Part shown: positions 21,697-51,571 of the stretch, in pieces
Position numbering within the stretch: the stretch's first letter is position 1
How the letters are laid out: every line of letters starts with the position of its first letter
Origin: Planctomycetales bacterium
Lineage (GTDB): Bacteria > Planctomycetota > Planctomycetia > Isosphaerales > Isosphaeraceae
NCBI GenBank assembly: GCA_027449865.1
Contig: DAIDKV010000201.1
Coordinates: 1-56,178, forward strand
DNA length: 56,178 nt
Direction: 5' to 3'
Position numbers and translations under genes: made by a program
Notes under the pieces: model-generated
Told to the model about the DNA's origin: nothing
The model's database searches: none
The model's input: only the letters and a program-made list of their open reading frames with translations

Positions 21697-22287
21697 TTAT
21701 TTGGCAGGCATTTCGACCGATCGCTGAATCTTCCCACGTGCGTCGAAGAGGCCGACAGCCGGCGTCGCGTCCGGCCGGACCGCGACCGCGGCGCGGAGGG
21801 TTCCCGCCTCGTCGTAGACGTTCACGCCCGAACTGCCGTCGTGGCCGACATCCAGAGAAGCGCGGACCTGACCGCGAGGGCCAAAGAGCCCGACGCCGGG
21901 CGTCCCATCAGGCCGGACCGCGACCGAGGCGAGTAGCGCCCCCGCTTCATCGTGCAGGTTCACCCCGCCCCGCCCATCGCCGTCAAGATCCAGCGAAACC
22001 CGAACCTGGCCGCTACGATCGTAGAGCCCAAGGCCCGGCGTCCCATCCGCCCGGATCGTCAGCGCAGCCCGGGTCGCGCCGGTGTCGTCGCGGAGCAGGA
22101 ACTCCCGCGCCTCGATCGTCGCCAGCCGATTCGCCGCCGCTCCGCACAGGACGATCGCCGCGGCACAGCCCGAGAACCCGATCCCCCACCGCCGCCAGGC
22201 CCGATGTCGAACCTCCAGCCGATGGTGCGACCGCTCCAGTTCTTCCAGCCGTTGCTGCAACTCTCTGAGCTCTGTTTCGCGATTCAC
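21697..22287 (-). CDS. Membrane protein with coiled coil and beta-repeat ectodomain
   Basis: A 196-aa protein. A GTG start at 22287 follows a GAGGGG box; an ATG at 22329 is an alternative. Residues about 1-27 (RETELRELQQRLEELERSHH) are a coiled coil, residues about 33-52 a membrane helix, and the remainder is made of about three 36-40-residue repeats of the form LLRDDTG.TRA.L.....DG.PGVGLFD..G..R.SL. The topology is probably cytoplasmic coiled coil and outside repeat domain. The family is not named by me; similar repeat proteins with D/G loops are common in planctomycetes. Confidence 0.65.
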   Translation of the reverse strand: MNRETELRELQQRLEELERSHHRLEVRHRAWRRWGIGFSGCAAAIVLCGAAANRLATIEAREFLLRDDTGATRAALTIRADGTPGLGLYDRSGQVRVSLDLDGDGRGGVNLHDEAGALLASVAVRPDGTPGVGLFGPRGQVRASLDVGHDGSSGVNVYDEAGTLRAAVAVRPDATPAVGLFDARGKIQRSVEMPAK

Positions 22288-40943: not shown

Positions 40944-43900
40944 TCATTTCAGCCGCATCCGGAAATGATAGGTCCCCGAGCCGATCAAGAGGGCCGAACC
41001 CTCGAGTATCCGGACGCCCTCGACCTCGGCGGCGGGGCGGTCGCCCTCGCGGATCTCGGTGACGCCCAATGGAGGACGAACAACGGCCTTCGCATTGGCC
41101 GGGATCGTGACTTCCAGGTCGAGCTGGTCGCCCTCGCGCTGCCATCGGGTCGCGATCATGCCCGAGGGGCCGCGGTATGTTGTCTTCGCCCAGGTGAGGC
41201 GCGGGTCGAGTTGGGGCTCGATTGTGATCGTGCCGTCGTGAGTCGGCCGGATGCCGCCGATCGTTCGCACCATCCAGCCGTGGACCGCTCCGAAGGAGTA
41301 ATGAGCAAACGAGTTCATGCCCGGGTCCTGGAAGCCCTTCTCCGGCGTCCAGCCATCCCAGCGCTCCCAGATGCTCGTCGCGCCCTGGCGGATCGAGAAG
41401 CCCCACGAGGGGAACGTCTCGTTGTGCAGCAGGCGGAACGCCACGTCATACCGGCCGATCTTGGAAAGCGCCTGCATCAGCGATTTTGTCCCGATGAATC
41501 CGGTCGACAGGTGATTCCCGCGTGCCTCGATGTCCTCGACCAGATACCGGGCCGCTCGCTCGAACGACGGATCGGAGCGATCCGGGCCGACCAGGTCAAA
41601 CGCAATCGCCAGCACGTAGCACGCCTGGGTGTTTCCCTTGATCCGGCCATCTGGGCCGATGTAGGCCCGGCGGAACGACCCCCGTATCTGGTCGAAGAGC
41701 TCGCGGTACTTTTTCGCGTCGTCGGACTTCCCGAGCGCCTCGGCGGCCTCGGCCGTTAGCTTCGCACTGTGCGCGAAGTAGGCCGTGTAGATCACATCCT
41801 TGGGCGTATCGGCCTGGATGCTCAGCCAGTCGCTGAAACAGTGGAATTGAGCCGGCGGCAAGAGGTCGGGCGTGCTCCGCTTCTTGCAGAACTCGATAAA
41901 CTTCACCATCGATGGATATTGACGCGCCAGCAATCGACGATCGCCGTAGACCTCGTAAATCGTCCACGGGCAAATCACGCCGGCGTCGGCCCAGGCCGGT
42001 CCGCCGTCGTCGCCGGCCACCTTCACCGGCGCCACCATCGGGAACTGGCCGTCGGGTCGCTGGCCATCGGTCAGGTCGACCAGCCACTTCGTGAAGAACG
42101 CCTGCACGTCGCAGATGAGTGAAGCGGTCTCGATGTAGACCTGAGCGTCGCCGGTCCAGCCGAGCCGCTCGTCGCGCTGGGGGCAGTCGGTTGGGATGTC
42201 AATGAAGTTGGCACGCTGGGTCCAGTAGATGTTGCTGAAGAGCTGATTGAGCATCGGGTCGGAGCAGGCGAACGAGCCGACGACCGGCGTCTCGCTCGAC
42301 AGGGCCACGCCCTTGATCGTTTCCTCGGTCGGACGCGAGGTCAGGCCCGAGACCTCGACGTACTGGAAGCCGTGGAAGGTGAACCTCGGCTCCCAGTTGA
42401 TGGGTTGGCCGTCGCTGATATAAACGTCCGTTGCGCGGGCCTCGCGAAGGTTGGTCGTGTAGACGGTGCCATCGGGATTGAGGCGTTCGGCGAACCGGAG
42501 GGTGATCGTTCGGCCGGGCTCGGCGGTCGTCTTCAGCCGGACGATTCCCGCGAAGTTCTGGCCCATGTCGAGGACGTAGTTTCCGGGCGTCGGCTCGGTG
42601 ATCGAATTTGGCCTGATTTCGGCGAACGGACGGACCGGCGGGCCGGGGTGCCATTGCACCACGGGGTTGACCTCAGCGCCGGTGTCGACGGCGTGCCAGG
42701 CCCGGTCGTCGAAGGAGGGGGCGTCCCAGCCGGGCATTGCCTTGCGGGCGTCGAAGGTCTCGCCCATCAGGAAATCGGCCTCGGTGATCGGGCCGGTTGA
42801 GGCTCGCCAGTTCGGGCCGGTGACGACGTCTTCCGTCGTTCCATCGTCGTGCTCGACATGCAAAATGGCCCGGAATCGCGGCTTCTGGCCGTAGTGATCG
42901 CGCTTCTTGCCGAAGCCGACGTAGCCGCTGTACCAGCCATCGGCCAGAATCGCGCCCAGGGCGTTTTCGCCGGGGCGAATGGTTGGGGTCACGTCGTAAG
43001 TCCGGTAATACACGCGGCGGGTGTAGTCGGTCCAGCCGGGGTTGAAACGGTCGTCGTGGACCCGTTGCCCGTTCAGATGAACATCAAAGATGCCGAGGCC
43101 GGTGGCATGGAGCGTCGCTCGTTTCACCGGCCTTGTGATCCGGAAGCCCGAGCGGAGGTAGATGGGCGGCGGCAGGATCAGCCGGGCGAATCTCAATCGG
43201 CCCCAGGGCGCCATGCCGTAATCGCCGAGAACCGCGGCCGAGGGCCAGCCGGCCGTTTCGAGCGTGCGGTTGTGCCAGTTGGCGCCGGGGTTATCGAGCG
43301 TTTTCCACGAGCCGTCGGTGACGAGCGTCGAGGTCGTTCCGTCAGCGGTCGTCACGGTCAGTTTCGCGATCAGACCGGCCGGGCTGGGTGTCGTGTTGTT
43401 GACCTCGACGCGGATGGTGTTCTCGGCGCCCGGCTTCAGGTGAGCGGCGACGTCGGCCGATTGAGGGTGATCCCATCCGCCCGAGCCCTCCGCACCGTTG
43501 ATAACCTGCGTCCCGTTGATCGTGAAATGGAAGAAGTCGTCGGCGGTCGCGATCAGTTCGGCCTTCTGGATCTTGCCGGCCGGCAGACGCCATGAGGTCA
43601 CGAAGAGGCGATGCGCCTTCGGTTTGTTGGGTTCGGTGTCGCGGGCGTGCCAGATCCACCTCGCGCCGTCGAGGGGAGCCTCGGGGAGGTCCATTTCTCT
43701 CGATCGATCCGAGCCGATCCAGGCGGCCCGTCGCCACTCGGAGGGATCGAGCGGACCCATCGACCAGTGCGCCGGCTCGCTCCAGGCCGATGGATGCCCC
43801 TCCCTGTCCCAGACCATCACCTTCCAGAAGCACGGCCGATGCGCGGTGAGCGGCTTGCCGGCATAGACGATTTCTCGGGTCGAGTCGGAGTCGACTCGCC

Positions 43901-44159
43901 CGGTGTCCCAGAGGTCGCCACGGTTCTGGGCGAGTGCTTCGCGATCGCCGGCAACCAGGATGCGATAGGCCGACTGCCGCTGCCCACGGGTCGAGGATTC
44001 GACGATCCAGCTCAGCCGGGGCGAGCGGACATCCATCCCGAGCGGACCGACAAGGTTCTCGCAACGGAGATAGGTTGGTCTCAGGCCGGAGCCGTCGGCG
44101 CCCCACGCCGTCGCGTGCATCAAAATCGCCAGGATCGCCAATGCCAGGGAGAGTCGCAT
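40944..44159 (-). CDS. Exported alpha-L-rhamnosidase, GH78 family
   Basis: A 1071-aa enzyme that releases terminal alpha-L-rhamnose from glycans. The start at 44159 has a GAGGGA box and gives signal MRLSLALAILAILMHATAWG; the frame upstream is spacer with repeats. The order matches GH78: an N-terminal Fn3-like domain (SPRLSWIVES), jelly-roll domains (about 170-330, 340-500), the (alpha/alpha)6 barrel with IPTDCPQRDERLGWTGDAQ, the catalytic-acid signature, and a C-terminal beta domain (KTTYRGPSGMIATRW). It is the last gene of the rhamnose operon; with the transporter and RhaA upstream it feeds one pathway. Confidence 0.95.
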   Translation of the reverse strand: MRLSLALAILAILMHATAWGADGSGLRPTYLRCENLVGPLGMDVRSPRLSWIVESSTRGQRQSAYRILVAGDREALAQNRGDLWDTGRVDSDSTREIVYAGKPLTAHRPCFWKVMVWDREGHPSAWSEPAHWSMGPLDPSEWRRAAWIGSDRSREMDLPEAPLDGARWIWHARDTEPNKPKAHRLFVTSWRLPAGKIQKAELIATADDFFHFTINGTQVINGAEGSGGWDHPQSADVAAHLKPGAENTIRVEVNNTTPSPAGLIAKLTVTTADGTTSTLVTDGSWKTLDNPGANWHNRTLETAGWPSAAVLGDYGMAPWGRLRFARLILPPPIYLRSGFRITRPVKRATLHATGLGIFDVHLNGQRVHDDRFNPGWTDYTRRVYYRTYDVTPTIRPGENALGAILADGWYSGYVGFGKKRDHYGQKPRFRAILHVEHDDGTTEDVVTGPNWRASTGPITEADFLMGETFDARKAMPGWDAPSFDDRAWHAVDTGAEVNPVVQWHPGPPVRPFAEIRPNSITEPTPGNYVLDMGQNFAGIVRLKTTAEPGRTITLRFAERLNPDGTVYTTNLREARATDVYISDGQPINWEPRFTFHGFQYVEVSGLTSRPTEETIKGVALSSETPVVGSFACSDPMLNQLFSNIYWTQRANFIDIPTDCPQRDERLGWTGDAQVYIETASLICDVQAFFTKWLVDLTDGQRPDGQFPMVAPVKVAGDDGGPAWADAGVICPWTIYEVYGDRRLLARQYPSMVKFIEFCKKRSTPDLLPPAQFHCFSDWLSIQADTPKDVIYTAYFAHSAKLTAEAAEALGKSDDAKKYRELFDQIRGSFRRAYIGPDGRIKGNTQACYVLAIAFDLVGPDRSDPSFERAARYLVEDIEARGNHLSTGFIGTKSLMQALSKIGRYDVAFRLLHNETFPSWGFSIRQGATSIWERWDGWTPEKGFQDPGMNSFAHYSFGAVHGWMVRTIGGIRPTHDGTITIEPQLDPRLTWAKTTYRGPSGMIATRWQREGDQLDLEVTIPANAKAVVRPPLGVTEIREGDRPAAEVEGVRILEGSALLIGSGTYHFRMRLK

Positions 44160-44217
44160 GGTCGTGTCCCTCGTGGTGCCAATCTTCCCGCCGTTGAACC
44201 TGGGAAATGCCGTTTCA

Positions 44218-44250
44218 CGCAGAGACGCAGAGGTTCGCAGAGACGCAGAG
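44218..44250. repeat. 15-base direct repeat CGCAGAGACGCAGAG
   Basis: Two exact copies lie at 44218-44232 and 44236-44250, separated by three bases. Each copy is itself built of CGCAGAG units. It sits in the spacer between the binding-protein and rhamnosidase genes. Repeats with this word are scattered in intergenic DNA of several bacterial groups; it is distinct from the ACCACGAAAA family in this window. Confidence 0.65.
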
Positions 44251-44357
44251 GGGCCGAAAATTCCCTCATCGCTGAACCTCGCCACTTTCGCGTCGATCCA
44301 TTATCAAGAGATGAAGAACTTGTTAAAAAACATATATATCTTTATTAAATAAAAGTG

Positions 44358-46478
44358 TCAGAAATCGAATTTGTCGATATTCTCTTTGGTGAACAGGTAG
44401 GGCTGGCCGAGCAGGATGTTGTCGCCCTCGATCTTGATTTCGCCGAGCCGTCCGGCCTTGATTTGCGAGTCTCCGGGCTTGAGCGAGCCCTCGATCAGGG
44501 CGACGGCCGATCGGACGGTCAGATAGCCGAGGTCCATCGTGTTCCAGAGGACGACGCAGTCGGTGATTCCCTCGTGAACGTATCGCTTGTTGTCATTTGG
44601 CAGGCCCAGGCCGATGACCTTCACGTCGGTTCGACCCGATTGCTTCACCGCCTCGGCCGCGCCCGGGACGGCCGGCGTGCAGATCGCCATGATGACTTTT
44701 ACACCTGGGTCGGCGTTCATGATCGCGTTGGCCTCGTCAAACGCCTTCTTCTGGAGATCGTCGCAGGGCCGGAGCGCTGCCATCTTGATTTTGGGATACT
44801 TTTCCGCCCGGATCTTTTCGATCCATTTTTGCCACTCGATCATGTTGGCGGCCGTGAGCGAGGCGGTGATGATCGCGAACTCTCCCTGATTGCCGAGAAC
44901 CCGGGCTGTGTTGTCCATCAGGGTGCGGCCGATCCCCTCGGGGGTCGCCTGGTTGACGAAGAAGTCGCGGGAGTCGGGCAGGGTGTCGGCGTCGAATGTC
45001 AGCACCTTGATTCCCCGGTCGTGCGCCTTGCGCAGGACCGAGGCGATGGCCTGGCGGTTCTCAACCGCGACGGCGATCACGTCCACTTTCCGGGTGATCC
45101 AGGTGTCCACGATTTCATTCTGGCGGGCGGGATCGGGGTCGGTGGGGCCGTCCCAGATCAGATCGACGCCCATCTCCTTCGCGGCCTCCTCAGCGCCCTT
45201 GCGGCAGGCGATGAAATAGGCGTTTCCCTTGCTTTTGGGCATCATTGCCAGGGTGATCCGCCGATGGGGTTTTGACTCGTGTTCCACCGTCGCCCGGGGC
45301 GCGATTTCCGGAGTCGGCACGCCCTCGGCCGGGCGGTTGGCGACGAACGAACGAATCAAGAAATAATTGCTGAGTGAAAGAATGGCCGCGCCGGCGAGGA
45401 TGGCCAGGCAGAGGGCGGCGACTTGCGAGTTCTTCACGGCGAATCTCTCCTGGAAAGAAGCGGTCGGCGCGAGGGCAGGGGGGTGCGGCGGTATTGCTCG
45501 CCATCGCCATCGCCATCGTTCTCGTCCTCGTCCTCGGCCGGGGCGGTCGAGGCCGATGGCGAGCAGGAGGAGCAAGCCGGTGACAACGCCGGCCAGCTCG
45601 CCCGGCATCGCCGAGAGGATCATCCCGTTTCGAAGGACCGAGATGGCGAACAGTCCGAGCAGCGTCCCCCCGACGCTTCCGCGTCCGCCGAAGATCGAGG
45701 TCCCGCCCAGAACGACCGCCGTGATCGCCGAGAGCTCGTAGCCGGTTCCGGCGTCGGCCTTGGCCTGGCCCAGGTGCGCCACGTAGATGATCGCCGCGAG
45801 GCTGGAAACCACGCCCGAGAGCACATAGGTCATCGCCACGAGGCGGTCGACCGGAAGTCCGGCATAGCGCGCCCCCTCGGGCGAAAACCCAATCGCCGAG
45901 AGCCCCCGGCCGATCGTCGAGCGATGCAGGATCACCCAGAACGCCGCGGCGACCATCGCGAAGATCGGCACCTGCGCCGGGATGCCACCCATCGTATAGC
46001 CCTGGCCCAGGAACAGGAACGACTCGGGGAAATTCGTGTAGTTCTCCACCCCGCCCGTCAGCCCCTCGGCCAGACCTCGAAAGAGCGAGTACGATCCCAG
46101 TGTTACGATCAAGGGAGGAATCCGGCCTCGCGTAATCAGGAGCCCGTTCAGGCCGCCGGCCAGCGCACCGATCGCGAGTGTCACCACGGCGGCCAGGGGC
46201 GTTGAGAGGCCGGCGTCGCGCCAGAGCATCCCGAAGACCACGGCCGAAAGCCCCATCAGCGAGCCGACCGACAGGTCGATCCCACCCGTCGTGATCACCG
46301 GCGTGAGCGCCACGGCCAGAAGCCCGATCTCGACCGAAAGCCGCAACACCTCGAACGCGTTGCCGACCGTCAGGAAATTCGTGCCGAGCACCGCGAACAC
46401 CGCGACCTCGGCCAGCAGAATCCCCGCCAGCACCCCACGCGCCGGATCAAACCACAACAGCCTCGGACCACCTGCCAT
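44358..46478 (-). CDS. Rhamnose ABC transporter: permease fused to sugar-binding protein
   Basis: One uninterrupted frame of 706 aa joins two transporter parts. Residues 1-312 are a RbsC/RhaP-like permease (ITTGGIDLSVGSLMGLSAVV, AVVLGGTSIFGGRGSVGGTL). Residues about 348-706 are a periplasmic sugar-binding protein of the RhaS type (KGNAYFIACRKGAEEAAKEM ... GRLGEIKIEGDNILLGQPYL). The linker is Arg/Trp-rich (RGRGRERWRWRWRAIPP), encoded partly by hexanucleotide repeats. A GTG at 45437 with an AGGAGAGA box begins a signal-anchor (VKNSQVAALCLAILAGAAIL), so a free binding protein of 359 aa could also be made. The chosen start, ATG 46478, has a GGTGG box; GTG 46481 precedes it. The fused form keeps a sensible topology, with the anchor as an extra helix. 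Confidence 0.85.
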   Translation of the reverse strand: MAGGPRLLWFDPARGVLAGILLAEVAVFAVLGTNFLTVGNAFEVLRLSVEIGLLAVALTPVITTGGIDLSVGSLMGLSAVVFGMLWRDAGLSTPLAAVVTLAIGALAGGLNGLLITRGRIPPLIVTLGSYSLFRGLAEGLTGGVENYTNFPESFLFLGQGYTMGGIPAQVPIFAMVAAAFWVILHRSTIGRGLSAIGFSPEGARYAGLPVDRLVAMTYVLSGVVSSLAAIIYVAHLGQAKADAGTGYELSAITAVVLGGTSIFGGRGSVGGTLLGLFAISVLRNGMILSAMPGELAGVVTGLLLLLAIGLDRPGRGRGRERWRWRWRAIPPHPPALAPTASFQERFAVKNSQVAALCLAILAGAAILSLSNYFLIRSFVANRPAEGVPTPEIAPRATVEHESKPHRRITLAMMPKSKGNAYFIACRKGAEEAAKEMGVDLIWDGPTDPDPARQNEIVDTWITRKVDVIAVAVENRQAIASVLRKAHDRGIKVLTFDADTLPDSRDFFVNQATPEGIGRTLMDNTARVLGNQGEFAIITASLTAANMIEWQKWIEKIRAEKYPKIKMAALRPCDDLQKKAFDEANAIMNADPGVKVIMAICTPAVPGAAEAVKQSGRTDVKVIGLGLPNDNKRYVHEGITDCVVLWNTMDLGYLTVRSAVALIEGSLKPGDSQIKAGRLGEIKIEGDNILLGQPYLFTKENIDKFDF
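45500..45535. repeat. Hexanucleotide repeat at the permease/binding-protein junction
   Basis: Six consecutive hexamers: GCCATC three times, then GTTCTC, GTCCTC, GTCCTC. They encode the ERWRWRWR-type linker on the minus strand. The period of six keeps the reading frame whatever the copy number. Confidence 0.8.
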
Positions 46479-46510
46479 CACATTTCCACCACGGGAAAAA
46501 GGTACTCAGG

Positions 46511-46573
46511 GAAACGGGGAAACGGGGAAACGGGGAAAACAGGAGCAACCACGGAAAACAGGAGCAACCACGG
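46511..46573. repeat. Short tandem repeats upstream of the permease/binding-protein gene
   Basis: GAAACGGG occurs three times in a row (46511-46534). It is followed by two exact copies of a 19-base unit AAAACAGGAGCAACCACGG (46536-46554 and 46555-46573), which run into the left arm of the foldback at 46562. The block is only 30-90 bases upstream of the minus-strand start codon, so it lies in the mRNA leader or spacer. Confidence 0.75.
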
Positions 46574-46735
46574 AAAACACGGAATTCCACGGAAAAGATA
46601 TATTATATAATCAGATAATCAGACTTAATGTAAAAAAGTTTCAGGATTTGATGGATCTAGAAGGGCTCTCATGGTTTTTTTGATTTGTTTGATGGTCTTA
46701 ATTTCCGTGAAATTTCGTGTTTTTCGTGGTTGCTC
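46562..46735. repeat. Foldback element between the two transporter genes
   Basis: The left arm (46562-46596) and right arm (46701-46735) are imperfect inverted repeats of about 35 bases with core GAGCAACCACGAAAAACACG. The interior (46600-46700) is strikingly AT-rich compared with the genome. It occupies the spacer between the ATPase-permease and permease-binding-protein genes, and its right end supplies the last codons of the upstream gene (SNHEIS). Confidence 0.7.
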
Positions 46736-46736
46736 T

Positions 46737-49406
46737 TCAAGAAATTTCGTGGTTGCTGCTTTCGCGGCGGAGGGCGTCGGAGGCGACGGCGAGGAGGATG
46801 ATCAGGCCCTGGATCGCCTTTTCCCACTGGGGTCGGGTGCCGAGGAAGAAGAGCGCCGGGCCGATCGTGCCGAGCAATGCCACGCCGACCAGCGCGCCGA
46901 CGAGGGTCCCACGTCCGCCCGAGATCGCGACGCCTCCGACCACCACCGCCGCGATCACCTGGAGTTCCAGGCCGGTGCCGGAATTCGGGTCGACGTCGGG
47001 GAGTCGAACAGCGTTCAGGAGTGCGGCCAGGCCGGCCAGGGCTCCCATCGCGACGAAGACCGCAAACGTGACGCGATTCGGTCGGATGCCGGCCAGTCGG
47101 GCGGCCTCGGGGTCGGAGCCGGTTGCGTAGATCGCCCGTCCGGCGGCGAGATTCCGCAAGGCCCAGGCGAACGTCGCGAAGGCTCCCAGCGCGATCGCCA
47201 CCACAATCCACTGGCCGACTGACTGCCCGACGCCGAACCACTGGAAGTCGGGCGGCAGGTCGCGGACGAACTCGCCCTCGCGCAGGTAACGTAGCGACTC
47301 GCGGCCGATCACGAGCGTGGCGAGCGTCACCACGATCGAGGGGAGTCCCAACCCGGCGACGAGTCCGCCGTTGACCGCTCCGAACGCCGCTCCGGCCGCG
47401 ATCGCTCCGACGACCACCGCCGGCATCGGCAGACCGGCCCGCGCGAGTAATCCCGCGGCCACACCGCTGATGCTGAAGATCGAGCCGATCGAGATATCAA
47501 TCTGTCGGCAGAGGATGACCATCGTCATCCCGACCGCCGCCACGAGCACCGGTGCGTTGGCGACCACCAGCGCCCGAATTTGCTCCCCCCGGAAGAACCT
47601 CGGCGCGGCGACCGCCAGCACCAGCAAGAGCACGAACAACGCCGCCGCCACCGATAGCTCCCTCGCCATCGAATTCGAGGAGGAACCACGAAAGGAATTC
47701 GCCATCGAATTCGAGGAGGAACCACGAAAGGAATTCGCCATCGAATTCGAGGAGGAACCACGAAAAACACGGAGGACACGAAAGAAATTCAAAGGATTAA
47801 AAATTTTGGAATCCGGGTCATCGACGATTCTGCCCTGATGATGGATTGAGGATGCCTGTCCTTCTTTTTCGTGTCCTTCGTGTTTTTCGTGGTTCCTCCT
47901 CTCTTCCGTAATCCACTCCGATCCGTGGTGGTGGCCGAGGGCGAGGTCGAGGATGGCTTCCTGGCTGGCCTCGGCCCGGTCGAGGGTCGCGGCGATGGTC
48001 CCGCCGCGCATCACGGCGATCCGGTCGCTCATTCCCAGGATCTCGGGCAGTTCGGAGGAGATCATCAGGATCGCGAGCCCCTCGCCGGCCAGTTCGCTCA
48101 TCAGCCGGTGGATCTCGGCCTTGGCGCCGACGTCCACGCCCTGTGTCGGCTCGTCGAGGATCAGAAGCCTCGGTCCGGAGGCCAGCCATCGGGCGAGCGC
48201 CACCTTCTGCTGGTTCCCGCCCGAGAGGTTGCCAACAGGCGCCTCCAGGCTCGGTGTCTTGACTCCCAGCCGATGCACGAAGGCGCTCGCTGTCGCCCGT
48301 TCGCGCGATCGGTGGATCAGTCCGAACGACGAGTGGGCGGGGAGGGTCGCCAGGGTGGTGTTGTCGGCCGTTGACATCGGCAGAATCACCCCGTGCCGCC
48401 GTCGGTCTTCTGGCACATACGCGATCCCCATCGAGATGGCCCTGGCCGGCGTGTCGATCCGGGCTGGCTGGCCGTCGATCTCGATCCGGCCCGAGTCGGC
48501 GGGCGTCAGGCCAAAGAGGACGCGCGCCAGTTCGGTCCGACCGGCGCCGACCAGGCCCGCGAGCCCGACGATTTCGCCGGCGCGCACCGAGAGGTGAATG
48601 TTGTGGATTCCCGACTCCCGGCAGCCGAGCCCGGTGGCTTCGAGGACGACCTCACGCGGCTCGACATCCCCTTTCGGGAAGACGGCCGAAAGCTCGCGGC
48701 CGACCATCATCCGGATCAGCTCGCCTCGGGAGACTTCCGACATGGCCCGGGTGCCGACCAGCCGGCCGTCGCGGAGCGCCGTCACGCGGTCGGCGATTGT
48801 CGGCAGTTCTTCCAGCCGGTGGGAGATGTAGATGATTCCCACGCCTCTGGCCTTCAGCTCAGCAATCGCCCGGAAGAGGCGCTCGACCTCCTGATCGCTG
48901 AGTGAGGCGGTCGGCTCGTCCATGATCAGGATTCGGGCCTCCGCGCCGAGGGCCCGGGCGATTTCCACAAGCTGCTGCTCGGGCATCGAGAGCCCGTGGA
49001 CGTCGGCGCCTGGGGCGATCGATGCCCCCGCGCGGTCCAGTAGCCGGCGTGCCCGGTCTCTACGCTCGTTCCACCGGACCCGCCGCCACCATCCGCCCGG
49101 CTCCAGGCCGATCCCGATGTTCTCGGCCACGGAGAGGTCGGGAAAGAGCGCCGGTTGCTGGTAGATCGCCGCGATCCCCAGCCCCCGCGCGGAGACCGGG
49201 TCGAGATCCTCGACAATCGCGCCGTCGACCTCCATCGTCCCCTCGTCGGGACGATGCGCGCCGGTGATTACCTTGATCAGTGTGGACTTTCCCGCACCGT
49301 TTTCGCCGACCAGCGCATGCACCTCTCCCGGTCGAAGGTCAAACGAGACACCCTCCAGAGCCCGGACCCCGGCGAACGATTTCCCGATCCCCCGCAGTCT
49401 CAGCAC
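46737..49406 (-). CDS. Rhamnose ABC transporter: ATPase fused to permease
   Basis: One open frame of 889 aa. A GTG start at 49406 follows a GGGAGGG box and gives VLRLRGIGKSFAGVRALEGV; the frame is open upstream but overlaps rhaA in another frame. Residues 1-500 hold two ABC ATPase domains (GENGAGKST, ILIMDEPTASL; LSGGNQQKVALARWLASG, LLILDEPTQG), as in RhaT/RbsA. Residues 580-889 are a permease (MARELSVAAALFVLLLVLAV; RQIDISIGSIFSISGVAAGL). Residues 500-580 come from repeat DNA: NHEKHEGHEKEG, then RGSSSNSMANSF repeated. No stop exists in this junction, so the ATPase cannot end separately unless translation or protein is cut. An internal ATG at 47669 could give a free permease, but it lacks a ribosome-binding site. 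Confidence 0.85.
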   Translation of the reverse strand: MLRLRGIGKSFAGVRALEGVSFDLRPGEVHALVGENGAGKSTLIKVITGAHRPDEGTMEVDGAIVEDLDPVSARGLGIAAIYQQPALFPDLSVAENIGIGLEPGGWWRRVRWNERRDRARRLLDRAGASIAPGADVHGLSMPEQQLVEIARALGAEARILIMDEPTASLSDQEVERLFRAIAELKARGVGIIYISHRLEELPTIADRVTALRDGRLVGTRAMSEVSRGELIRMMVGRELSAVFPKGDVEPREVVLEATGLGCRESGIHNIHLSVRAGEIVGLAGLVGAGRTELARVLFGLTPADSGRIEIDGQPARIDTPARAISMGIAYVPEDRRRHGVILPMSTADNTTLATLPAHSSFGLIHRSRERATASAFVHRLGVKTPSLEAPVGNLSGGNQQKVALARWLASGPRLLILDEPTQGVDVGAKAEIHRLMSELAGEGLAILMISSELPEILGMSDRIAVMRGGTIAATLDRAEASQEAILDLALGHHHGSEWITEERRNHEKHEGHEKEGQASSIHHQGRIVDDPDSKIFNPLNFFRVLRVFRGSSSNSMANSFRGSSSNSMANSFRGSSSNSMARELSVAAALFVLLLVLAVAAPRFFRGEQIRALVVANAPVLVAAVGMTMVILCRQIDISIGSIFSISGVAAGLLARAGLPMPAVVVGAIAAGAAFGAVNGGLVAGLGLPSIVVTLATLVIGRESLRYLREGEFVRDLPPDFQWFGVGQSVGQWIVVAIALGAFATFAWALRNLAAGRAIYATGSDPEAARLAGIRPNRVTFAVFVAMGALAGLAALLNAVRLPDVDPNSGTGLELQVIAAVVVGGVAISGGRGTLVGALVGVALLGTIGPALFFLGTRPQWEKAIQGLIILLAVASDALRRESSNHEIS
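47667..47774. repeat. 36-base tandem repeat inside the ATPase-permease frame
   Basis: A 36-base unit occurs at 47667-47702 and 47703-47738, with a third partial copy from 47739 that runs into the foldback arm. Each unit contains two GAATTC sites and GAGGAGGAACCACGAAA. On the minus strand it encodes MANSFRGSSSNS per unit, each with an in-frame ATG. It is not CRISPR: there are no spacers. Confidence 0.85.
47749..47901. repeat. Foldback element within the ATPase-permease coding frame
   Basis: The left arm (47749-47786) and right arm (47862-47901) are inverted repeats of about 38 bases (GAGGAGGAACCACGAAAA core, then ACACG and GGACACGAAA) with three or four differences. The loop is about 75 bases and AT-richer. 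On the minus strand the right arm reads ERRNHEKHEGHEKEG and the left arm FFRVLRVFRGSSSN, all without a stop. Confidence 0.75.
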
Positions 49407-49495
49407 GTCGAACCCTCCCGATCGCCTCGTTTTGACCTTGCGCGAGGATATGGCGATGCGATGAATTTGGGTGGTCGATTCGAGATAAGGGTTCC

Positions 49496-50767
49496 TCAGC
49501 GATGCGCCAGCACCGACCGCTCGTATTCCTTGACCTCGGCGAGCCAGTCTCGGCCGGGGGGGACGCCGTGGGTTCGGCAGTGGTGGTCCCAGACGGCGCC
49601 GAAGGGGAGGGCCTTGATTTCTTCGAGGAGAGCCAGCCGGGAGGTGAGATCGCCTTCGGCTTCGAGGCGGCGGAGGGATTCGGTCGGTTCGAGCAGGGCG
49701 ATCAGGAGGGCCTTGAGCATGGCCCGGGTGCCGATCACCCAGGCGGCGACGCGGTTGATGGTGGCGTCGAAGAAGTCGAGGCCGATGTGGACGCGAGGGA
49801 GGTAATCGCCTCGGACGAGTTCCTGGGCGATGGCGAGCAGTTCGTCGGAGAGGATCACGACGTGGTCGCTGTCCCATCGGACGCCCCGGCTGACGTGGAG
49901 CAAGACCTCGTCGAGGTGGGTCAGGACGGCGGAGAGCTTGTCGGAGACGACCTCGGTGGGGTGGTAGTGTCCGGCGTCGAGGCAGAGGAGCTTTTTGCGG
50001 GTGAGGGCGTATCCGTAATAGAACTCGTGCGAGCCGACGACGTAGCTTTCGGAGCCGATTCCGAAGAGCTTTCCCTCGACGGCGTCGCGGGCGGCCATGG
50101 GGTCGATGGACTCGGCGAAGAGGGCGTCGAGCGATTCAGCCAGGCGGGCTCGTGGACCTTTGCGGTCGAGTGGAGGTTCTTTTGAGCCGTCGGGGATCCA
50201 GACGTTGTTGATGGATGGGGAGCCGAGCGCGGTTCCGATCGCGGCGGCGATTCGGCGGCAGGCGATTCCGTGGTCGATCCAGAACCGGCGGATGCCGGGG
50301 TCGGGGTGGGCCAGCGTGTAGCCGTCGGCGGCGAGCGGGTGGGCGAAATAGGTGGGGTTGAAGTCGATTCCGATCCGGCGTGAACGCGCCCAGTCGATCC
50401 AGCCACGAAAGTGTTCGGGCTCGACGGCGTCTCGGTCGACGGTGTGGCCCGAGGGAAACTCGCCGTAGCTGGCGTGGAGGTTGAGGCGGTGCCGGCCGGG
50501 CAATAGTGAGAAGACGCGGTCGAGGTCCGTCCGAAGCTCGTCGGCGTTTCGGGCACGGCCGGGATAGTTCCCGGTGACGGCCAGACCGCCGCCGATGGCC
50601 TGGCCCGTGCCCTCGAAGCCGACGACGTCGTCCCCTTGCCAGCAGTGGAGTGAGATCGCGATGGTGGACAACCGGTGGAGGGCGGCGTCGACGTCGACGC
50701 CCCACTCGGCATACTGTTCGCGGGCCAGTTCGAAAGGGGTTTCCACGCTGGTTGTCGCCGCGGCCAT
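49496..50767 (-). CDS. rhaA: L-rhamnose isomerase
   Basis: A 423-aa enzyme converting L-rhamnose to L-rhamnulose. Family features: [62 protein letters not shown] followed by [12 protein letters not shown], the metal- and substrate-binding region, and [12 protein letters not shown]. The start at ATG 50767 ([14 protein letters not shown]) has a GAGG box; a TTG six codons upstream is less likely. It is the first gene of the minus-strand rhamnose operon and lies 89 bases before the ATPase-permease gene. Rhamnulokinase and rhamnulose-phosphate aldolase are not in the window. Confidence 0.95.
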
Positions 50768-51571
50768 GATTTCGGATCCTCGCAAACGGTGGGGCGCCCG
50801 CGGTGCGGGGCAGGGCGGATCGGCCCACCCAGATTAGCCGAGGCGGATCCGACGGGCAATGACATCATTCCGATCGATCGTGATGGATGGGAACGGGTCG
50901 AGGGTAGCCGTTCACGCCCCAGACAATTTGTACAGGGATCCGCGCGGGTGGCACCGCCTCGAGGCCGAGCGAGTGGACGGGGAGGGATTCCGCACGGCGA
51001 GTTCGCGGAACGGATGCTGACAGTGGTCGCCACCTGCCGCCAGCAAGGGCGGAGCGTGCGGGACGCCAGGACATCCTGCTTCGACGCGGCTCGGAGTGGC
51101 CAAGCGATCACATCTCTCCTGCCCGCGGAACCACCGGAGACCAAGATTGCCTGATATCGGCTATCCCACTCCGTGAACGGTGACTGCTGAAAAGACTGGT
51201 TTATTAGCGAGGAGTGTTGACATCGGCCGAAAAGCATACTACTTTCCTCGCAGGGAACCAAGTAAAAGCACGCACTTAACTGTTGATTGAAAATGATTTT
51301 GGGCGAGGGGGGCTCTGAAAAACCGGGGTTCAGGGCTGTTGAGGGAGGCATCCGGCGAATCAGCGGATCGTCGGCTCAGCAGGCCGCATCTGTGCGAACG
51401 GCCTGCAAGAGAGGCCGTTTCTCTGGGATCAAGCCACTCGCCGTAACGACCAATTTTTCAACAACAAAGTGTGCGATTGTCCCGCGGGGGAACCGACCAG
51501 GCTCGGTCATCGGTCATCATCCGAAATCGGATGAACCGCACGGAATACAGCGCACGTTAATGGAGGAATCA
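50768..51571. other. Divergent region between rhaA and the DUF1254/DUF1214 gene
   Basis: About 800 bases with no supported gene. The first 100 bases should hold the rhamnose operon promoter (minus strand), but no clear box or operator palindrome was found. A sigma70-like candidate for the plus-strand gene is at 51217. Confidence 0.4.
51217..51245 (+). promoter_or_regulatory. Promoter candidate for the DUF1254/DUF1214 gene
   Basis: A perfect TTGACA at 51217-51222 is followed after 17 bases by TACTTT (51240-51245). It would give a leader of about 320 bases. The -10 match is weak. Confidence 0.35.

Follow-up and report, generated by a model that had tools for sequence, protein, structure and literature searches.

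A single open reading frame in a planctomycete contig joins the permease of a CUT2-type importer to its RhaS-like binding protein. It is likely that this gene makes two products: the permease with the binding protein tethered to it and, from an internal start, the anchored binding protein free of the permease. The window, the whole stretch of DNA that was analysed, comprises 56,178 nucleotides of Planctomycetales bacterium (GCA_027449865.1, contig DAIDKV010000201.1). The frame at 44358-46481 on the minus strand has 707 codons when read from GTG at 46481 and 706 when read from ATG at 46478. Read from the latter, 44358-46478 encodes a CUT2 permease, a short linker, one membrane helix and a RhaS-like binding protein, in that order (Table 1). 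The preliminary description of this DNA had placed permease and binding protein in one frame and had noted that a GTG within it follows a good ribosome-binding site. Both observations held: the frame is open with BPD_transp_2 followed by Peripla_BP_4 in Pfam, and the GTG and its Shine-Dalgarno (SD) site lie where they are listed in Table 1.

Table 1. Features of the fused gene and its neighbours. Positions are those of the window.
Feature	Position	Strand	Basis
CUT2-type permease domain, residues 1-311	45546..46478	-	Pfam BPD_transp_2 residues 41-307, E 1.5e-39; helices in the model, pLDDT mostly >85
Linker, residues 312-347, presumed cytoplasmic	45438..45545	-	Length and sequence vary among relatives, frame always kept; residues 334-348 pLDDT <50
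Pair of adjoining hexamer arrays, 3.5 copies each, coding RGRGRERWRWRWR	45498..45536	-	Tandem-repeat listing
Shine-Dalgarno-like AGGAGAGA, 6 nt 5' of the internal GTG	45444..45451	-	Read from the sequence; conserved among relatives
Candidate internal start GTG (residue 348), opening the conserved V/M-K-N-S-Q motif	45435..45437	-	ATG/GTG in 52/52 motif-bearing fusions, GTG in Gemmatirosa
Single membrane-anchor helix, residues 350-380	45339..45431	-	Predicted model
Flexible linker ahead of the binding domain, residues 381-404	45267..45338	-	Residues 382-403 pLDDT <50
RhaS-like sugar-binding domain, residues 405-706	44361..45266	-	Pfam Peripla_BP_4 at 411-664; match to 4kvf
Partner ORF, double ABC ATPase fused to second permease	46737..49877	-	Two ABC_tran stretches and BPD_transp_2 in Pfam
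Tandem array of a 36-bp unit (2.9 copies) where ATPase and permease join	47663..47765	-	Tandem-repeat listing
L-rhamnose isomerase RhaA, upstream, same strand	49496..50785	-	TIGR01748 638 bits, cutoff 585
Alpha-L-rhamnosidase, downstream, same strand	40944..44285	-	Pfam Bac_rhamnosid6H and others

Binding proteins of the Peripla_BP_4 type are typical of CUT2 importers. A single ATPase chain with two ABC cassettes is described as a further trait of that family (PMC11212667). The transporter in the window has a BPD_transp_2 permease, a two-cassette ATPase chain in the partner ORF (the first ~157 residues of which are probably not coding) and a Peripla_BP_4 binding protein. It departs from the family in that the binding protein is fused and is not a separate gene product, a trait usual in CUT2 importers and not strictly defining.

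The gene for the fused permease and binding protein is sporadic yet widespread. In a search of 59 genomes, its own included, a near whole-length match in one stop-free frame was found in 13, and a 14th was cut by a contig end. A profile was built from the 13 whole-length open matches and then used on 45 genomes of the window's family; the fusion was open in 17 of them, own included, with no internal stops (16 whole, one cut by a contig end). A scan of 84,980 named species genomes gave 44 loci, of which 34 were fused, 7 unfused and 3 too short to call (L088-L090). Some of the 34 fused loci come from genomes of the 45-genome family count, and the scan reaches fairly close relatives only because it was built on two conserved peptides. 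Fused members were found in Planctomycetota (Isosphaeraceae, for example Singulisphaera and Tautonia, Pirellulaceae, Phycisphaerales and Tepidisphaeraceae), Acidobacteriota, Armatimonadota and Verrucomicrobiota, and in a fifth phylum on a plasmid of Gemmatirosa kalamazoonensis (Gemmatimonadota). Phylum surveys, drawn evenly, gave matches at E 1e-90, with fused and unfused pooled, in 13 of 392 genomes of Planctomycetota, 19 of 297 of Acidobacteriota, 12 of 288 of Verrucomicrobiota and 64 of 251 of Armatimonadota; 30 of the matched places were read in Armatimonadota and all listed places in the other three phyla. The phage collection yielded 13 records, all below 60% identity. The preliminary description had allowed for a conserved stop between the parts in orthologous loci together with an error here; close orthologues lack such a stop, and some more distant relatives encode permease and binding protein as separate genes. 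Two candidates, G044 and G058, for which equal open-frame lengths had suggested a fusion, were rejected, their genes being separate.

The reference set consisted of 59 distinct fused proteins, identical copies being counted once, and all 59 contained both the BPD_transp_2 permease and the Peripla_BP_4 binding domain. One genome cut by a contig end (L014/L046), whose junction reads GTG, stands outside this set. In 52 of the 59 proteins the anchor helix is headed by (M/V)[KR]NxQ or a close form (MKYGQ, MKTSH). The first codon of the motif, read from the alignment, was ATG in 26 and GTG in 26 of these 52 (ATG in L135 by this alignment-based count), and no other codon occurred. A 27th GTG was found at the aligned site of the Gemmatirosa gene (L181), which was added later and is not counted among the 52. 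Were the position conserved for valine as an amino acid, its other codons should turn up at the motif head as well; GTG was seen in 26 of 26. In the same 26 rows, none of the 10 all-valine control columns was all GTG, nor was any of the 45 columns with at least 13 valines, the highest reaching 85%.

The surroundings of this codon also resemble a site of initiation. An SD 4-mer lay 4-16 nt upstream of the internal codon in 48 of 52 fusions, compared with 16.7% of 33,983 control codon positions, and the SD duplex energy placed the site in the best 6% of codon positions (median over 24 representatives). Local mRNA fold energy averaged -6.1 kcal/mol at the site against -11.0 kcal/mol in the rest of the gene (38 representatives), the 9th weakest of 619 columns; the fold was stronger than the gene's mean in two of the 38 (L011 and L152). 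The four sites lacking an SD fold weakly (L111, -1.2; L070, -2.1; L133, -1.9; L134, -1.3), and the Gemmatirosa site, also without an SD, has a fold of -7.4, which is not weak. When codons were re-drawn with the amino acids fixed, the SD was not significant (p 0.06, 24 representatives; p values combined across relatives overstate independence). Because re-drawn codons give nearly as good an SD, the amino acid sequence could account for the SD and folding signals: the acidic residues behind the SD could be kept for protein reasons, and low GC and weak folding are partly a by-product of K, N and E codons. The start-codon test is free of this weakness. As expected of a gene with two products, the internal codon and the initiation signals around it are conserved; the exception is the synonymous SD control.

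Unfused relatives bear on the same question. Among 118 distinct binding domains read, 59 were fused (52 with the motif and 7 without) and 59 were others. Of the latter, 54 are clearly unfused, with a stop codon upstream within the locus; four that run off the locus end (L088, L089, L125, L143) and a broken fused-type gene (L120) were excluded. The motif was found in none of the 54 clearly unfused domains, and a lipobox-like cysteine was present in 35 of 54 unfused and 0 of 59 fused domains. In L120 the GTG AAG behind an SD is kept and NSQ is lost; its permease lies in a different frame, owing to a frameshift or an assembly error. The suggestion in the preliminary description that a fused and a free binding protein could both be produced thus gains comparative support, in that start codon and SD are conserved and the motif is absent from unfused genes. 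Judged at the level of sequence, we consider the comparative evidence for the putative internal start strong.

An alternative is that the protein is fused constitutively and that selection acts on (M/V)KNSQ as a piece of protein at the mouth of the anchor helix, and not as a place where translation starts. The strong conservation of the motif's N and Q as residues would fit this, as would the non-significant synonymous SD control and the seven fused proteins that do without motif or start. However, methionine and valine are the sole residues at the motif head, motif and start were lost together in the seven, and a valine conserved as such would be coded by GTC about as frequently as by GTG (46% of valine codons are GTG in 38 genes and 43% in 24 representatives), in contrast to the GTG of all 26 valine-headed motifs, which no control column matched. 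We regard a purely constitutive fusion as unlikely.

The seven fusions without the motif are one planctomycete (L096) and six members from the Acidobacteriota survey (L117, L118, L119, L122, L123, L124). All keep the hydrophobic stretch; the aligned codon is a non-start codon or is missing, and in some the joint contains in-frame ATG, GTG or TTG codons at other places. Since both motif and start are lacking, the free form would be dispensable there and the fusion alone enough. The planctomycete example (L096:1501-3435) belongs to another family than the window. It seems fairly probable that at least five phyla keep a gene that gives from one frame a subunit with its receptor and the receptor alone, that the ratio of free to tethered receptor depends on how strong the internal start is, and that some lineages have become fixed as fused-only and others have split the gene.

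Changes between the fused and unfused states numbered six on a tree of the binding domain and three on a tree of joined permease and binding sequences. Both trees were quick ones; L120 and L125 are labelled startless in both, and the joined tree omits 10 of 95 rows, namely those without a permease hit plus L017 and L102. The three changes on the joined tree could be two gains and one loss. In both trees the unfused clade of Verrucomicrobiota and L083 were placed among fused lineages, which suggests that split genes re-arose from fused ones. The shared KNSQ anchor argues for one gain with later splits; there may also have been two gains of the fusion. The Opitutus genome of L079 has a second, incomplete permease and binding-protein set on another contig (L147, L150), cut by the contig end.

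In the window the linker is Arg/Trp-rich and, as the preliminary description had it, coded in part by tandem hexamers; the count is about seven copies of two related units and not six copies. The arrays, at 45498-45518 and 45516-45536, have scores of 42 and 35. In the window 57 tandem-repeat rows score at least 30, and such arrays are not rare. Allowing up to one mismatch, a 20-base stretch of the hexamer array had no second copy elsewhere in the genome. Three or more tandem hexamers occurred in one of the 59 fused-protein linkers, that of this genome only. The origin through repeats that had been proposed for the fusion was rejected, as relatives with quite different linkers and no hexamer arrays have the same fusion; for the same reason the hexamer repeat must have arisen after the fusion, and the Arg/Trp repeat appears to be one local filling of the spacer. 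Among the 52 motif-bearing fusions the linker varied from 14 to 38 codons by whole-codon differences and without a stop. It was open in the coding frame in 52 of 52 and in the other two frames in 34 and 27 of 52; it is in this conservation, and not in the arrays, that the linker goes beyond chance. The fused members were gathered as open frames, so this count weighs only jointly with the absence of the motif from unfused loci. In 13 close pairs the linker changes freely: replacement codon changes numbered 105 and silent ones 43, and changes at third positions were in modest excess (p 0.003). Such a pattern fits a spacer that is translated but under loose constraint.

A linker that is disordered in the model and hypervariable could also serve as a cleavable spacer, so that a single chain would be cut there into a permease and an anchored binding protein. 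We consider such a polyprotein highly improbable: inspection of the aligned linkers by eye showed no conserved cleavage motif, a cleaved chain would have no need of a conserved start codon, and the cytoplasmic position of the linker is itself one that we infer.

The preliminary description had also counted two separate fusions in this transporter, both through repeats, and had seen in them a striking coincidence. The other fusion is that of the double ATPase with the second permease. We examined 37 loci for this joint, five of which were incomplete. ATPase and permease share one frame in 3 of the 32 readable loci (the window, L047 and L048), all from the window's genus, and are separate in the other 29, less surely so in L065, where the ATPase hit is on the other strand, and in some loci that are cut. 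The joint at 47663-47900 runs through dispersed-repeat-like sequence, which in the window also includes the 36-bp tandem array. Among the loci read, the ATPase-permease fusion is lineage-specific; it is repeat-borne and probably young. Because it is confined to one genus whereas the permease-binding protein fusion spans phyla and is not repeat-borne, the two are not one phenomenon, and the coincidence dissolves. That a lost stop or a sequencing error in one assembly, aided by the hexamer repeats, had opened the binding-protein joint was rejected and has a negligible probability: although the genome is high in GC with few stops, repeats lie at the joint and the nearby junction of ATPase and permease offers an example of this kind within the genus, the open joint recurs in many separately sequenced genomes, in five phyla and with other linkers.

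AlphaFold2 with a 59-row alignment gave a model of mean pLDDT 87 and pTM 0.79. In it a helical permease is followed by a helix at 350-380 and then by the binding domain, with disordered stretches at 334-348 and 382-403 on either side of that helix. The permease alone had no match among PDB sequences at E 0.001, and in structure searches with the model the best 50 listed of each were nearly all binding domains. The C-terminus of this permease type lies in the cytoplasm, and given this, one extra helix would put the binding domain outside. A tethered binding domain, as the preliminary description had envisaged, is topologically sensible, with an anchor helix in the predicted model.

We propose the following mechanism for the gene with two products. 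From the cytoplasmic end of the permease the short linker would lead into the extra helix, which would cross the membrane, and the flexible 24-residue linker would keep the rhamnose-type binding protein at the inner membrane's outer surface. With no stop between the parts, every permease copy would bear a binding protein. The second start at the head of the anchor helix would let ribosomes also make the anchored binding protein alone, and one mRNA could provide one tethered catcher per transporter and extra free ones mobile in the membrane. The partner permease has no binding protein, so a transporter that pairs the two permeases would be a heterodimer with a single tethered domain. The expected benefit would lie in local concentration: our own estimate of the effective concentration, taking 0.35 nm for each of the 24 linker residues and adding 2 nm, is about 0.7 mM. 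It follows the reckoning of the OpuA authors, which takes a half-sphere of linker plus domain radius and gives 4 mM for OpuA (PMC11065425).

Gene context points to rhamnose as the probable ligand. The transporter in the window is flanked by RhaA and an alpha-L-rhamnosidase; RhaA also adjoins the transporter in Singulisphaera (L050) and Tautonia (L057), an alpha-L-rhamnosidase that of L049, and a rhamnulose-1-phosphate aldolase/dehydrogenase the acidobacterial one of L070 (942 bits, cutoff 634). This last gene (L070:2178-4421) encodes a bifunctional rhamnulose-1-phosphate aldolase/short-chain dehydrogenase and is itself a two-enzyme fusion. Of the few genes scanned next to the transporters of L077 and L079, none was named as a rhamnose gene. 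The RhaS equivalog model TIGR02637 gave 259.6 bits, below its cutoff of 342.25; the rhamnose context therefore supports the substrate and not membership of the equivalog. Since the model score is below cutoff and no rhamnose gene was named beside L077 and L079, the substrate is not certain beyond the loci named. The binding domain matched the rhamnose-binding protein 4kvf with a VIA-align Z of 27.5 (1.8 A over 300 residues) and the autoinducer-2-binding LsrB with a Z of 27.4; being nearly equal for the two, the fold does not separate these ligands. The RhaS/LsrB-like structures 4kvf, 5bq3 and 1tjy share the fold (Z ~27, 28-34% identity), but unlike the domain described here their proteins are free and not fused to a permease. 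The binding domain also has matches at ~37% in plasmid genes of Rhizobium that are annotated rhaS. In Rhizobium leguminosarum, RhaSTPQ is described as a rhamnose ABC importer encoded in a rhamnose operon (PMC3870299); its binding protein, unlike ours, has a separate gene.

Tethered binding domains are known from other importers. The permeases of OpuA and GlnPQ are of type I and carry BPD_transp_1. The window's importer shares with them a binding domain covalently linked to the permease and, in the predicted model, an anchor helix with a flexible linker; it differs in its BPD_transp_2 permease. By analogy it may work like OpuA and GlnPQ, without being a member of that group. In OpuA (OpuABC) of Lactococcus lactis the binding domain is described as tethered by a short flexible linker and a transmembrane helix that serves as its anchor (PMC11065425), and in GlnPQ the substrate-binding domains as covalently linked to the transmembrane domain (PMC8025302). 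OpuA and GlnPQ are type I importers of osmolytes and amino acids, and OpuA, from what its account states, has two copies of the fused chain and two tethered domains, in contrast to the one tether expected here; the gene studied here belongs to a CUT2 sugar importer of Gram-negative phyla with two different permeases and a conserved internal start. The permease of EgtUBC, the ergothioneine transporter of Streptococcus pneumoniae, is of a different family. EgtUBC likewise has a permease followed by a binding domain in one chain; its ligand is another, and no internal start is described in the available part of the paper (PMC9732360). In Salmonella and E. coli, pairs of N-terminal proteoforms, a long and a short product from one frame, are reported from Ribo-RET (PMC11005335), whereas here the putative short product would be a whole separate subunit with a start kept across phyla. 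Neither a CUT2 permease-binding protein fusion nor an internal start in one appeared among the matches listed from partial texts in open-licence PubMed Central, which is weak evidence that none has been described. What sets this gene apart from OpuA and GlnPQ is its place in another family of transporters and its conserved internal start. To our knowledge, why some importers tether their binding proteins and most release them in excess is still open. With fusions that have an internal start, fusions that have none and split genes, one family offers a direct comparison of tethered with free receptors. Should the internal start prove to be used, it would rank as a deeply conserved in-frame start that gives a different subunit and would be missed by one-gene-one-protein annotation.

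Further repeats were noted in the window. The gap between the two transporter ORFs holds short tandem arrays at 46509-46600 (an 8-mer in 3.8 copies and a 19-mer in 2.4-3.3 copies), adjoined by an AT-rich stretch at about 46597-46640. A 65-bp tandem repeat (1.9 copies, 91%) lies at 40-162, and the longest period listed in the window is a 138-bp tandem repeat at 21746-22055 (2.2 copies, 74% matches).
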